DNA of 64,000 bases. Source: Blastococcus capsensis (GTDB taxonomy: Bacteria > Actinomycetota > Actinomycetes > Mycobacteriales > Geodermatophilaceae). The stretch lies in the NCBI RefSeq assembly GCF_030165005.1, contig NZ_JASNNW010000020.1, forward strand, positions 1-64,000, given 5' to 3'. A model generated the notes under the pieces. That model ran no database searches. It was given only the letters and a program-made list of their open reading frames with translations, and was not told where the DNA came from. Both the position numbers and the translations under genes were made by a program. This document shows, one piece after another, positions 15,431 through 18,479 of the stretch. The stretch's first letter is position 1, and every line of letters begins with the position of its first letter.

Positions 15431-16048
15431 ATGGCCCGCTCCTCCGAGCCTGCCCGGAGCACGACTCCCGGCAGCACCCCCGGTACCCTGCTCTCCTCCG
15501 CCGACGTCGCGCGCGTCGTCGATCGCATGGCCCACCAGCTCATCGAACGGGCCGCGAGCGGCCGCCCGGAGGGCGGTGGATCGGCCGACGGAGGGCTCTC
15601 CGACCTCGTGCTGGTGGGCATCCCCACCCGCGGTGCCCCGCTGGCCCGCCGCCTGGCCGCCCGGATCGAGGCGTTCACCGGGACGACGGTCGACGTCGGA
15701 ACCGCCGACATCACCCTCTACCGCGACGACCTGCGGCTGCGCGGTGTCCGCGCGCTGGAGCCCACCGTGCTGCCCGACGCGGGCATCGACGACCGGCTCG
15801 TCGTGCTCGTCGACGACGTCCTGTTCTCCGGCCGGTCCGTCCGGGCCGCGCTGGACGCGCTGCGCGACCTCGGCCGGCCGCGGAGCGTCCAGCTGGCCGT
15901 GCTGGTCGACCGCGGGCACCGGGAACTGCCGATCAAGGCCGACTTCGTCGGCAAGAACGTGCCGACCTCGCGGAGCCAGCAGGTGAAGGTGCACCTCGCC
16001 GAGACCGACGGGAGCGACGAGGTCGTGGTCCTGGACGGGGAGCTGTGA
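15431..16048 (+). CDS. pyrR: Bifunctional pyr operon regulator / uracil phosphoribosyltransferase
   Basis: RNA-binding regulator of pyrimidine synthesis with weak UPRTase activity. 205 residues. The N-terminus [18 protein letters not shown] is an extra linker; [20 protein letters not shown] starts the fold. [10 protein letters not shown] is the flexible-loop region, and the PRPP motif [18 protein letters not shown] lies near residues 122-138. [22 protein letters not shown] is the RNA-binding basic stretch. A strong AAGGAGG precedes the ATG and a PyrR-binding loop overlaps the leader, so the gene is probably autoregulated. First gene of the pyr operon. Confidence 0.96.
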
Positions 16049-16131
16049 GGCGACAGGAAATGGGCATCGCAGCGAGCGCCGGCGAGCGAGGAGCGGAGCG
16101 ACCGCGGAGCCGAACGGGGGACAGCGCATGA
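16045..16131 (+). repeat. Translatable spacer repeat A (pyrR/pyrB junction)
   Basis: An 87-base spacer that is itself an open frame of 28 codons. Its GTG overlaps the pyrR stop (GTGA) and its TGA overlaps the pyrB ATG (ATGA). Core 16062-16110 (GCATCGCAGCGAGCG...GCGAGCGAGGAGCGGAGCGA) is repeated at the pyrB/pyrC and pyrC/carA junctions, here read one frame away from the other copies. The peptide starts [19 protein letters not shown]. Most likely a coupling element, not a functional protein. Confidence 0.75.
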
Positions 16132-17048
16132 AGCGGCACCTGCTGGAGGCCGCTGACCTCGACCGGGACGACGCGACGCTGGTGCTCGACACCGCGGCGC
16201 AGATCGACCAGGCGCTGGCCGGCCGCGAGGTGAAGAAGCTCCCGACCCTGCGCGGCCGCACCGTGGTCAACCTCTTCTACGAGGACTCCACGCGCACCCG
16301 CATCTCCTTCGAGCTGGCCGCCAAGCGGCTCTCGGCCGACGTCATCAACTTCTCGGCCAAGGGCAGCAGCGTCTCCAAGGGCGAGAGCCTCAAGGACACC
16401 GCGCTCACCCTCGAGGCCATGGGCAGCGACGCGGTCGTCGTCCGGCACCACATGTCGGGCGCACCGCACCGGCTGGCGCACTGGGTCCGCGGCAGCGTGG
16501 TCAACGCCGGTGACGGCACCCACGAGCACCCGACCCAGGCGCTGCTGGACGCCTACACGATCCGGCAGCGGCTGGGCCGCCTCGACGGCGTGCGGGTGAC
16601 GATCGTCGGCGACGTGCTGCACAGCCGGGTGGCCCGGTCCAACGTCGGGCTGCTGCACACCCTCGGTGCCGAGGTCACCCTGGTGGCGCCCCCGACGCTG
16701 CTGCCGGTGGGCGTGGGCAGCTGGCCGGCCGAGGTCGGCTACGACCTGGACGCCGTCCTGCCCAAGAGCGACGTCGTGATGATGCTGCGCGTGCAGGCCG
16801 AGCGGATGAACGCCTCGTTCTTCCCGAGCGCCCGGGAGTACAGCCGCCGCTACGGCCTGGACGCCCACCGGATGGGCGCGCTGCCCGACGACGCCATCGT
16901 CATGCACCCCGGCCCGATGAACCGCGGCATGGAGATCGCCGCCGACGTCGCCGACTCGGTCCGCTCGACCATCGTCGAGCAGGTCGCCAACGGGGTGTCG
17001 GTCCGCATGGCCGTGCTCTACCTGCTGCTCGGAGGGTCTCCCCAGTGA
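16128..17048 (+). CDS. pyrB: Aspartate carbamoyltransferase catalytic chain
   Basis: Condenses carbamoyl phosphate with aspartate, second step of UMP synthesis. 306 residues. Carbamoyl-phosphate motif [12 protein letters not shown] near residue 49, [16 protein letters not shown] near 130, aspartate-domain motif [11 protein letters not shown], and [12 protein letters not shown] near 263. No regulatory pyrI gene is present, as normal in Actinobacteria. Embedded in the pyr operon between two translatable spacers. Confidence 0.98.
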
Positions 17049-17119
17049 GTGAGCATCGCAGCGAGGAACGAGCGAGGACTCAGCGTCCGGCCGAGCGGAG
17101 CGAGGAAAGAGGACAGTGA
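17045..17119 (+). repeat. Translatable spacer repeat B (pyrB/pyrC junction)
   Basis: A 75-base open frame of 24 codons. It starts GTG over the pyrB stop (GTGA at 17045) and ends TGA over the pyrC GTG (GTGA at 17116). The peptide begins [11 protein letters not shown]. Bases 17045-17078 (GTGAGTGAGCATCGCAGCGA and following) are nearly identical to copy C, including the reading frame, and the core is shared with copy A. Confidence 0.8.
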
Positions 17120-18405
17120 CCACCTACCTGATCAAGGGCGTCCGGCCGCTCGGCGGCGATGCCGCCGACATCCTCGTCGAGGACGGCCGCATCGCGGCGA
17201 TCGGCGAGTCGCTGTCGCCGGCCGGCGCCGACGTCGTGGAGGCCGGCGGACTCGTCGCGCTCCCCGGGCTGGTCGACCTGCACACCCACCTGCGCGAGCC
17301 CGGCCGCGAGGACGCCGAGACGGTGGAGACCGGCAGCCGCGCGGCAGCGCTGGGCGGGTTCACCGCGGTGCACGCGATGGCCAACACAGACCCGGTCGCC
17401 GACACCGCCGGGGTCGTCGAGCAGGTGTGGCGGCTGGGCCAGGAGGCCGGCCTGGTCGACGTCGTCCCCGTGGGCGCGGTGACCGTCGGGTTGAAGGGGG
17501 AGCGGCTGGCCGAGCTCGGCGCGATGGCCGACTCCGCTGCCCGCGTGCGGGTCTTCTCCGACGACGGGCACTGCGTGGCCGACCCCGCGCTCATGCGCCG
17601 GGCGCTGGAGTACGTGAAGGCCTTCGACGGCGTCGTCGCCCAGCACGCCGAGGAGCCGCGGCTGACCACCGGCGCCCAGATGCACGAGGGCGACCGCTCG
17701 GCGCGGCTCGGCCTGACCGGCTGGCCGGCCGCCGCGGAGGAGGCGATCATCGCCCGCGACGTGCTGCTCGCCGAGCACGTCGGCGCGCGGCTGCACGTCT
17801 GCCACGTCTCGACGGCCGGGTCGGTGGACATCCTGCGCTGGGCGAAGTCCCGCGGCGTCCAGGTGACCGCCGAGGTGACCCCGCACCACCTGCTGCTCAC
17901 CGACGCCTGCGCCGAGAGCTACGACCCGGTGTTCAAGGTCAACCCGCCGCTGCGGACCGACGCCGACGTGGAGGCGCTGCGGGCCGGCCTCGCGGACGGG
18001 ACGATCGACGCCGTCGGCACCGACCACGCCCCGCACGCGGTGGAGGACAAGGAGAGCGAGTGGGCGCAGGCCCGGCCCGGGATGCTCGGGCTGGAGCAGG
18101 CGCTCTCGGTCGTCATCGAGACGATGGTCGAGCCCGGCCGGCTCGACTGGGCCGGGGTCGCCGACCGGATGTCGGTGCGCCCGGCGGCCATCGGCCGGCT
18201 GGAGTCGCACGGCCGGCCCATCGCCGTGGGCGAGCCGGCCAACCTGCTGCTGGTCGACCCCGGGCACCGGGCCGTCGTCGACCCGGCGGCCCTGGCCAGC
18301 CGCAGCCGCAACAGCCCCTATGCCGGCCGGGAGCTCCCCGGCCGGGTGGTCGCGACGTTCCTCCGGGGGACGCCGACCGTTCTGGACGGAAAGGCCGTTC
18401 GATGA
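17116..18405 (+). CDS. pyrC: Dihydroorotase
   Basis: Cyclises carbamoyl aspartate to dihydroorotate; type I amidohydrolase. 429 residues. Metal motif [15 protein letters not shown] near residue 53. The position of the carbamylated Lys of other amidohydrolases is VFSDDG, i.e. Asp, as in non-carbamylated type I bacterial enzymes such as that of Aquifex. His ligands are in [10 protein letters not shown] and LHVCHVST; the last Asp is in [16 protein letters not shown] start overlaps the spacer stop. Expected to work with PyrB. Confidence 0.97.
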
Positions 18406-18479
18406 CAGTGAGTGAGCATCGCAGCGAGGAACGAGCGAGGAGCGGAGCGAGCGCGGAATCGAACAGAAGGGCAGAGCAA
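18402..18479 (+). repeat. Translatable spacer repeat C (pyrC/carA junction), in frame with carA
   Basis: ATG 18402 overlaps the pyrC stop (ATGA) and opens 26 codons (starting [17 protein letters not shown]) that run without a stop into carA. The DNA is the same family as A and B: bases 18408-18440 almost repeat 17045-17078, and AGCGAGGAGCGGAGCGA also occurs in A. In this copy the closing stop is absent, so the spacer could add 26 residues to CarA or simply carry ribosomes to the internal GTG 18480. Confidence 0.75.

Follow-up and report, generated by a model that had tools for sequence, protein, structure and literature searches.

In the 64,000-nucleotide stretch of Blastococcus capsensis DNA analysed here (the window, contig C8:1-64000 of genome G000, which comprises 4.39 Mb in 51 contigs), the genes pyrR, pyrB, pyrC and carA are parted at all three successive junctions by related inserts of 67-79 bp. 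We propose that these inserts belong to a family of non-autonomous mobile repeats of about 70-85 bp found in the Geodermatophilaceae, and sequence comparison makes it probable that members of this family insert in one direction at the TGA stop codons of genes, which would spare translational coupling where the stop lies in an RTGA (GTGA or ATGA) overlap with the next start. Support comes from copies that are present in some relatives and absent from others, from their placement by the stop codon and their uniform direction, and from duplicated target sequence on either side; in addition, copies occur in tandem or nested, and their arms covary.

The first-pass annotation of the window had described one GC-rich repeat in three copies, two of them complete mini-open reading frames (mini-ORFs) overlapping the upstream stop and the downstream start, and the third with a frame running on into carA. 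These overlaps are present at each junction. Element A, between pyrR and pyrB (16045..16131, forward strand), is a mini-ORF of 28 codons that extends from GTG 16045, overlapping the pyrR stop, to TGA 16129-16131, overlapping the pyrB ATG at 16128. Element B, between pyrB and pyrC (17045..17119, forward strand), has 24 codons; its GTG overlaps the pyrB stop, and its TGA (17117-17119) overlaps the pyrC GTG at 17116. In element C, between pyrC and carA (18402..18479, forward strand), the ATG of ATGA 18402-18405 overlaps the pyrC stop, and the frame remains open for 26 codons into carA, which starts with GTG at 18480. The inserts are thus related, but less uniform than a single repeat in three copies: B (17051-17066) and C (18414-18429) carry an exact first core and A (16062-16077) one with two mismatches, while the second is exact in A (16084-16101) and C (18433-18450) and broken in B. 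Element C also has a pair of arms on the forward strand, in which the last two pyrC codons, GTTCGA (T arm, 18397..18402), meet their reverse complement TCGAAC (T' arm, 18459..18464) with 6/6 pairs.

Within the window itself, the two cores (at up to three mismatches) are only mildly more frequent than expected, their counts being reached by 11/100 and 5/100 shuffles, and on these numbers the inserts could be taken for a chance or compositional likeness of GC-rich spacers. The whole genome gives another picture, as it holds 71 copies of the first core (50 exact and 21 with one mismatch) against 3 for a reversed-pattern control, and 48 copies of the second core with at most one mismatch against none. 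Searching relatives, which the first-pass annotation had called for, revealed the exact first core in 96 of 112 genomes of the family and in 10 of its 12 genera, the control giving one match in one genome; among the nine genomes of genus g8 (G075-G083), there was none. The full two-part core was found in 76 of 397 genomes sampled across the order, with no control match; outside the Geodermatophilaceae, it was seen in the families f2 (13 genomes), f13 (two) and f15 (one). These counts, together with the precise empty sites described below, refute a chance similarity, to which we assign a vanishingly small probability. Copies also occur in tandem and nested within the loop of another copy. The sequence family had been noted as one without a known description, and we found none either: the core 15-mers and their complements had no match in open literature text, and open-literature searches on repeats of Geodermatophilaceae or Blastococcus, on actinobacterial interspersed repeats and on intergenic repeats with target duplication, judged from the search results, returned no description of it.

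Two close relatives (L106 and L108) have bare 4-nt GTGA/ATGA overlaps at each of the three pyr junctions, and the repeats are therefore best read as insertions that duplicated the stop/start site. Other relatives show mixed states. For instance, L159 is bare at pyrR/pyrB alone and carries related copies at pyrB/pyrC and pyrC/carA, and the metagenome-assembled genome L109 is filled at pyrB/pyrC alone, by a degenerate copy, with bare overlaps at pyrR/pyrB and pyrC/carA. In L107, pyrR/pyrB and pyrC/carA are filled and pyrB/pyrC is an unrelated 35-nt gap; the copy at its pyrC/carA junction belongs to another subfamily, a sign that insertions may have struck there repeatedly. Similar patterns recur at sites outside the operon. 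The L070 site is filled in one of 23 genomes of the genus, where TCATGAGCG stands on both flanks; G008 has a single TCATGAGCG, and G022 an 18-nt spacer without a core. The L085 site is filled in G000, holds a degenerate copy in G020 and lacks a core in the other 21 genomes, while the L093 site is filled in one of the 22 orthologues read (L277 and L278 were left out) and the L087 site in one of 21 read, two more (L285 and L290) being unreadable at contig ends. At the L065 site, two of 20 readable orthologues are filled, with CCGTCGCCTGA duplicated in G000 and the near-identical G008 bare (L469 was masked, and the paralogues L472 and L473 were left out), and the L077 site is filled in 6 of 23 genomes. 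The stop region is duplicated at filled sites, as RTGA and, judged by eye, between some coupled genes as a stretch of up to 9-15 nt; elsewhere, the duplicate is some 7-14 nt long and comprises the last codons plus TGA.

Placement was examined in 180 repeat clusters from seven genomes, the regions analysed being all 45 in G000, 20/20 in G006, the first 20 of 25 in G008, 24/24 in G028, 21/21 in G048 (where one further match at a contig edge was left out), 20/26 in G053 and 15/15 in G088. Clusters without a first core were excluded from the placement and frame counts, except in the window, and L069 was dropped because its 9.5 kb are identical to those of L068. Of the 180 clusters, 135 start 0-75 nt past a same-strand stop; among the remainder, 16 fall inside a called sense ORF, 5 follow a same-strand gene at a distance of more than 75 nt, and 24 are without such a gene directly upstream. 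The gene that comes next is convergent for 10 of the 135 and was not seen for 2. Even copies without a closely following gene still start at a few set distances past a TGA. Of the 68 copies that lie tightly between same-strand genes, 66 follow a TGA stop and 61 an RTGA stop, compared with RTGA at 56 of 207 control junctions, which are element-free and have gaps of 50-250 nt. The random placement without overlap bias that would have spoken against the first-pass annotation was thus not what we observed.

These 68 tight copies were scored with start-independent and chained tests, L076, L094 and L095 having been left out of the mini-ORF survey as coding chance matches. One mini-ORF provides the handoff to the next gene in 41 copies, a chain of them in 4, and 14 are fused in frame with the next gene; counting one copy per downstream-gene cluster (55 in all) gives 31 with a handoff, 13 fused and 11 with neither. 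An RTGA stop combined with a handoff or chain is found in 41/68 tight copies, in contrast to 22/207 controls (Fisher 1.7e-15) and to 9/57 copies that lie farther from the next gene. RTGA stands at both ends in 49 of the 68, and the distance from one RTGA to the other, which takes 22 lengths from 71 to 390, is 2 mod 3 in 36, 0 in 10 and 1 in 3; among the 18 longer inserts, which measure 149-188 nt, residues 2, 0 and 1 are represented by 13, 4 and 1. A Shine-Dalgarno-like motif precedes the next start in 57/70 element junctions, against 94/207 gapped and 86/163 overlapping or abutting controls. The earlier idea that the repeats are coupling spacers thus holds insofar as these copies are translatable bridges overlapping at both ends, but it is not the whole story, since many copies have no close or co-oriented next gene, with 57 same-strand copies separated from the next start by over 60 nt.

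Several points weigh against the reading of mobile, coupling-sparing insertions. Some of the empty sites may reflect loss rather than gain of a copy. Handoff or chaining occurs at 38/207 element-free junctions, 9/68 tight copies show neither a handoff nor a fusion, and in-frame fusion (14/68) is hardly commoner than in controls (33/207), so that the run-on seen in element C is not distinctive. The 36 copies at 2 mod 3 are not independent events, as they go back in part to a few founder lengths, and at sites without tight coupling, 25, 14 and 8 of 47 units fall at 2, 0 and 1 mod 3; comparing the two distributions, we consider the frame bias real and in part inherited from those few lengths. Gene calls and starts come from our own codon-score gene finder, seeded on the pyr genes, and not from a published tool; a codon model trained on the longest ORFs was rejected because it gave antisense calls. 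The Y1 (REP-type) transposase PF01797 was detected in 0/108 Geodermatophilaceae genomes, compared with 5 of 14 controls, and is therefore not supported as the mobiliser. Finally, folding of the window copies gave z scores of -0.18 for A, +1.88 for B and -0.71 for C, none significantly beyond shuffles, and we accordingly claim no hairpin role for A and B. Rfam covariance models run over positions 15300-19000 of the window at E values up to 1 produced two weak matches, neither covering an element.

Copies at gene ends without a coupled next gene are predicted to fold into hairpins with a right arm that matches the end of the host gene. In the classes c9, c12, c14 and c24, which were delimited by our own regular expressions, the stem around a conserved loop varies in step on both sides. 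With the structure held fixed as derived from the same copies, the covariation score is 0.420 in c9 against 0.126 in shuffles and 0.218 in c12 against 0.079, neither being reached in 500 shuffles, and shifting the partner by 1-3 columns destroys the signal. The c9 alignment used 27 of 28 copies, L389 having been left out because it looks like another subfamily. Not every part of these structures is supported in this way. The short c12 helix between the host-codon helix and stem A (CGAC/GTC[AG]) barely varies, with one pair unformed in 10/24; a measure of further pair types in c12 showed nothing unusual (116/500 shuffles); and the 23 copies of the leftover class showed no clear stem (p 0.078, a value flattered by shuffles taken at the best register only).

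Directly past GCGGAA or GCGGAGTC[AG], copies that start with TGACAG (c9) or TGACGACAG (c12) have a right arm that reads as the reverse complement of the last codon or codons of the host gene. The comparison of arms included 28 c9 and 24 c12 loci, copies not parsed by the regular expressions being left out. In c12, the last codon is perfectly complementary in 23/24 loci, with a mean of 2.96 of 3 positions (shuffles 2.07, highest of 10000 2.50), and in c9, the 28 loci yield 17 distinct arm pairs with a mean match of 4.71 over six nucleotides, 8 of them being perfect (shuffles 3.11, highest of 10000 4.18). The arm is internal and not terminal, some 10 nt separating it from the direct copy on the right. 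In 8/8 informative loci, at which the last codon of the host is not the same as its duplicate on the right, the arm agrees with the codon of the host, judged by eye (L379 and L423 could not be scored). At a moaD-like site, G016 has a GGG/CCC pair where the other filled genomes have GGC/GCC. At some c9 sites, the last codon alone matches (L077) or almost nothing does (L091 and L417, 1/6 in register).

Such hairpins raise the question of whether the repeat acts mainly at the 3′ ends of mRNAs or between genes, in transcript stability or termination, the mini-ORFs being a by-product of stop-poor GC-rich sequence. Stem A and the host-codon arm covary, many copies lack a coupled downstream gene, and some members fold far beyond shuffles (the L420 copy with z -5.23, L406 with z -2.61), all of which this proposal would accommodate. 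On the other hand, A and B in the window lack a hairpin, L093 (z -1.32) and L398 (z -0.89) are only slightly beyond shuffles, and a role of this kind does not explain RTGA duplication together with start overlap, both of which are far above the level of element-free junctions. We consider it unlikely as the main function of the repeat.

The origin of the tailored arm allows for more than one explanation. It might be a guide that pairs with the last codons of the target beside its TGA during transposition, new guides arising by mutation; the complementarity in c12 and c9, beyond all 10000 shuffles in each class, would be expected of a guide, as would the internal position of the arm. However, the agreement of the arm with the host codon and not with the duplicate, and the CCC of G016 opposite a last codon GGG, would also fit rewriting or selection after insertion, and the poor matches of L077, L091 and L417 are awkward for a guide, which we regard as possible but doubtful. 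Alternatively, the arm may be written after insertion, either by template switching at a quasi-palindrome or through selection for a longer stem. That the arm tracks the living gene end and not the non-coding duplicate points in this direction, as does the difference between G016 and the other genomes at the moaD-like site, unless the G016 copy is a separate insertion, as it may be. Against it, the process would be needed at almost every copy, and 23 perfect codons among 24 c12 loci leave few intermediates; we hold this explanation to be a credible one, albeit short of an even chance. A bolder and more tentative proposal, which we would advance only as a conjecture, combines both aspects of the family: the internal arm would pair with the last codons of the target and position insertion at the stop, so that from each copy one could read which target it had chosen or was directed to, and at coupled genes the duplication and the open frame would make the insert a ribosome relay that spares expression of the operon.

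Returning to the preferred reading of one-way insertion at stop codons, the steps might be as follows. Insertion would duplicate a short target, namely the stop codon plus part of the last codons. If that target is the 4-nt RTGA overlap of coupled genes, duplication would leave RTGA at each end of the insert, which is usually open in frame between the two and would bring its own Shine-Dalgarno-like right end. A ribosome could then end the upstream gene, restart on the mini-ORF, terminate there and restart on the next gene, a relay that would leave translational coupling intact. Elsewhere, the insert would form a hairpin around the stop codon, its outer arm complementary to the last codon or codons of the host, and this arm would either serve in target pairing or be rewritten at or after insertion.

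The closest parallel is with mycobacterial interspersed repetitive units (MIRU), to which the first-pass annotation had already compared the design of the inserts. In 1997, Supply et al. reportedly found MIRU oriented like the flanking genes and inserted at DTGA with its duplication. MIRU are not known to have dyad symmetry. The present family shares an ORF coupled by overlapping stop and start (45/68 tight copies hand off or chain, as judged from sequence overlap), a duplicated DTGA-type target (RTGA when empty in relatives and on both sides when filled, as in 49/68 tight copies) and orientation as the flanking genes (the 135/180 clusters close behind a same-strand stop). By analogy, then, the family is likely MIRU-like in mechanism, a comparison made through described features. 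It differs in the covarying host-codon helix and stem A of c9 and c12, the host-complementary arm, the nested copies and a large uncoupled class, and the hairpin and tailored arm appear to be new relative to MIRU. A passage of one article describes MIRU as short dispersed repeats, apparently mobile, for which a softened effect of insertion has been proposed (PMC12548453).

By the features checked, the family is neither of the type of repetitive extragenic palindromic (REP) sequences with REP-associated tyrosine transposases (RAYT) nor a classical miniature inverted-repeat transposable element (MITE). It resembles REP and the related BIME (bacterial interspersed mosaic elements) and REPIN (paired REP sequences) as high-copy small intergenic hairpins, and part of one source notes that GTAG REP termini often give a stop codon to flanking ORFs (PMC3733652). 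In contrast to the REP/RAYT system, it has direct target copies, an orientation set by the stop codon and, as noted above, no Y1 transposase in the genomes searched. The bacterial MITEs RPE, ERIC, YPAL and Correia are presented, in the sections of a further article, as small mobile hairpin repeats with some ORFs fused in frame to genes, many having TA at their termini and several lying inside genes (PMC2229807). Here, a stop codon is the target and the sequence of the outer arm differs from host to host; the stems are internal and not terminal, and the direct copies are of variable length, RTGA or about 7-15 nt as judged by eye. The conserved loop, rich in AGCGA repeats parted by G-rich runs, bears a likeness in sequence alone to the AGCGA-quadruplex-forming DNA dealt with in an excerpt of another report (PMC5442326).

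Other repeats were encountered alongside the family. A different hairpin repeat, GGGGGCACCTCCCGCTTGCGGGGGAC or near it, lies within or beside family copies at L331 (G020) and at L063 and L097 (G000), and in G020, it stands in place of the loop in the L085-site copy. Past the L093-site orthologue of G011 (L275), repeated TTTTCCGCGGAAAA palindromes stand close behind a stop codon. Beyond the window, positions 98800-108400 and 115000-124500 of G000:C8 (L068 and L069) hold a repeat of at least 9.5 kb, offset by about 16.2 kb and 100% identical over 9501 bases, which either arose by tandem duplication not long ago or is an artefact of assembly.

As for the host operon, its genes, all on the forward strand, take their names from NCBIfam: PyrR (15431..16048, stop TGA 16046-16048 within GTGA; NF003547, 9.3e-82), PyrB (16128..17048, ATG start, stop within GTGA 17045-17048; NF002032, 4.9e-124), PyrC (17116..18405, GTG start; NF006836, 7.7e-229) and CarA (18480..19646, conserved GTG start; TIGR01368, 8.3e-133). 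The two top NCBIfam profiles for CarA begin at residue 3-4 of the protein that starts at 18480. PyrB is 92-96% identical to records of Geodermatophilus africanus, Blastococcus haudaquaticus, B. mobilis and "Bacillus sp. AZ43". The last of these (L106, SPQJ01000006.1, marked UNVERIFIED_ORG), whose PyrB is 96% identical to that of the window, groups by this protein with Geodermatophilaceae, and its label looks wrong.

Upstream of pyrR lies a hairpin (15387..15426, forward strand) in which the pyrR Shine-Dalgarno sequence AAGGAGG is paired with CUCCUUU, and which is near-identical in the window and the four relatives checked (L106, L107, L108 and L159). Its predicted energy is -17.8 kcal/mol (z -1.72), 12/200 shuffles folding equally well, and the Rfam PyrR model scores 28.6 bits on the leader, under the gathering score of 54. 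The modelled structure is likely a PyrR-binding loop. In Mycobacterium smegmatis, PyrR controls the translation of pyrR. Mycobacterial translational repression by PyrR was not evident from titles in our literature search, in which two passages of one review concern B. subtilis PyrR. Control of pyrR translation would depend on coupling for any effect on the later genes; through such coupling, repression where pyrR starts would extend to pyrB, pyrC and carA, and coupling preserved across the inserts would preserve this regulation.

Insertions into operons are usually harmful, as they break translational coupling. Over many copies and empty sites, this family shows how a mobile repeat may settle on the stop/start overlap while the operon would stay readable, and its members, which vary widely in length and frame, provide a natural series of translatable spacers for work on termination and reinitiation. 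The host-matched arm poses a separate puzzle, in that a dispersed repeat varies in sequence according to the gene preceding it, and it makes models based on guides, template switching or selection testable.

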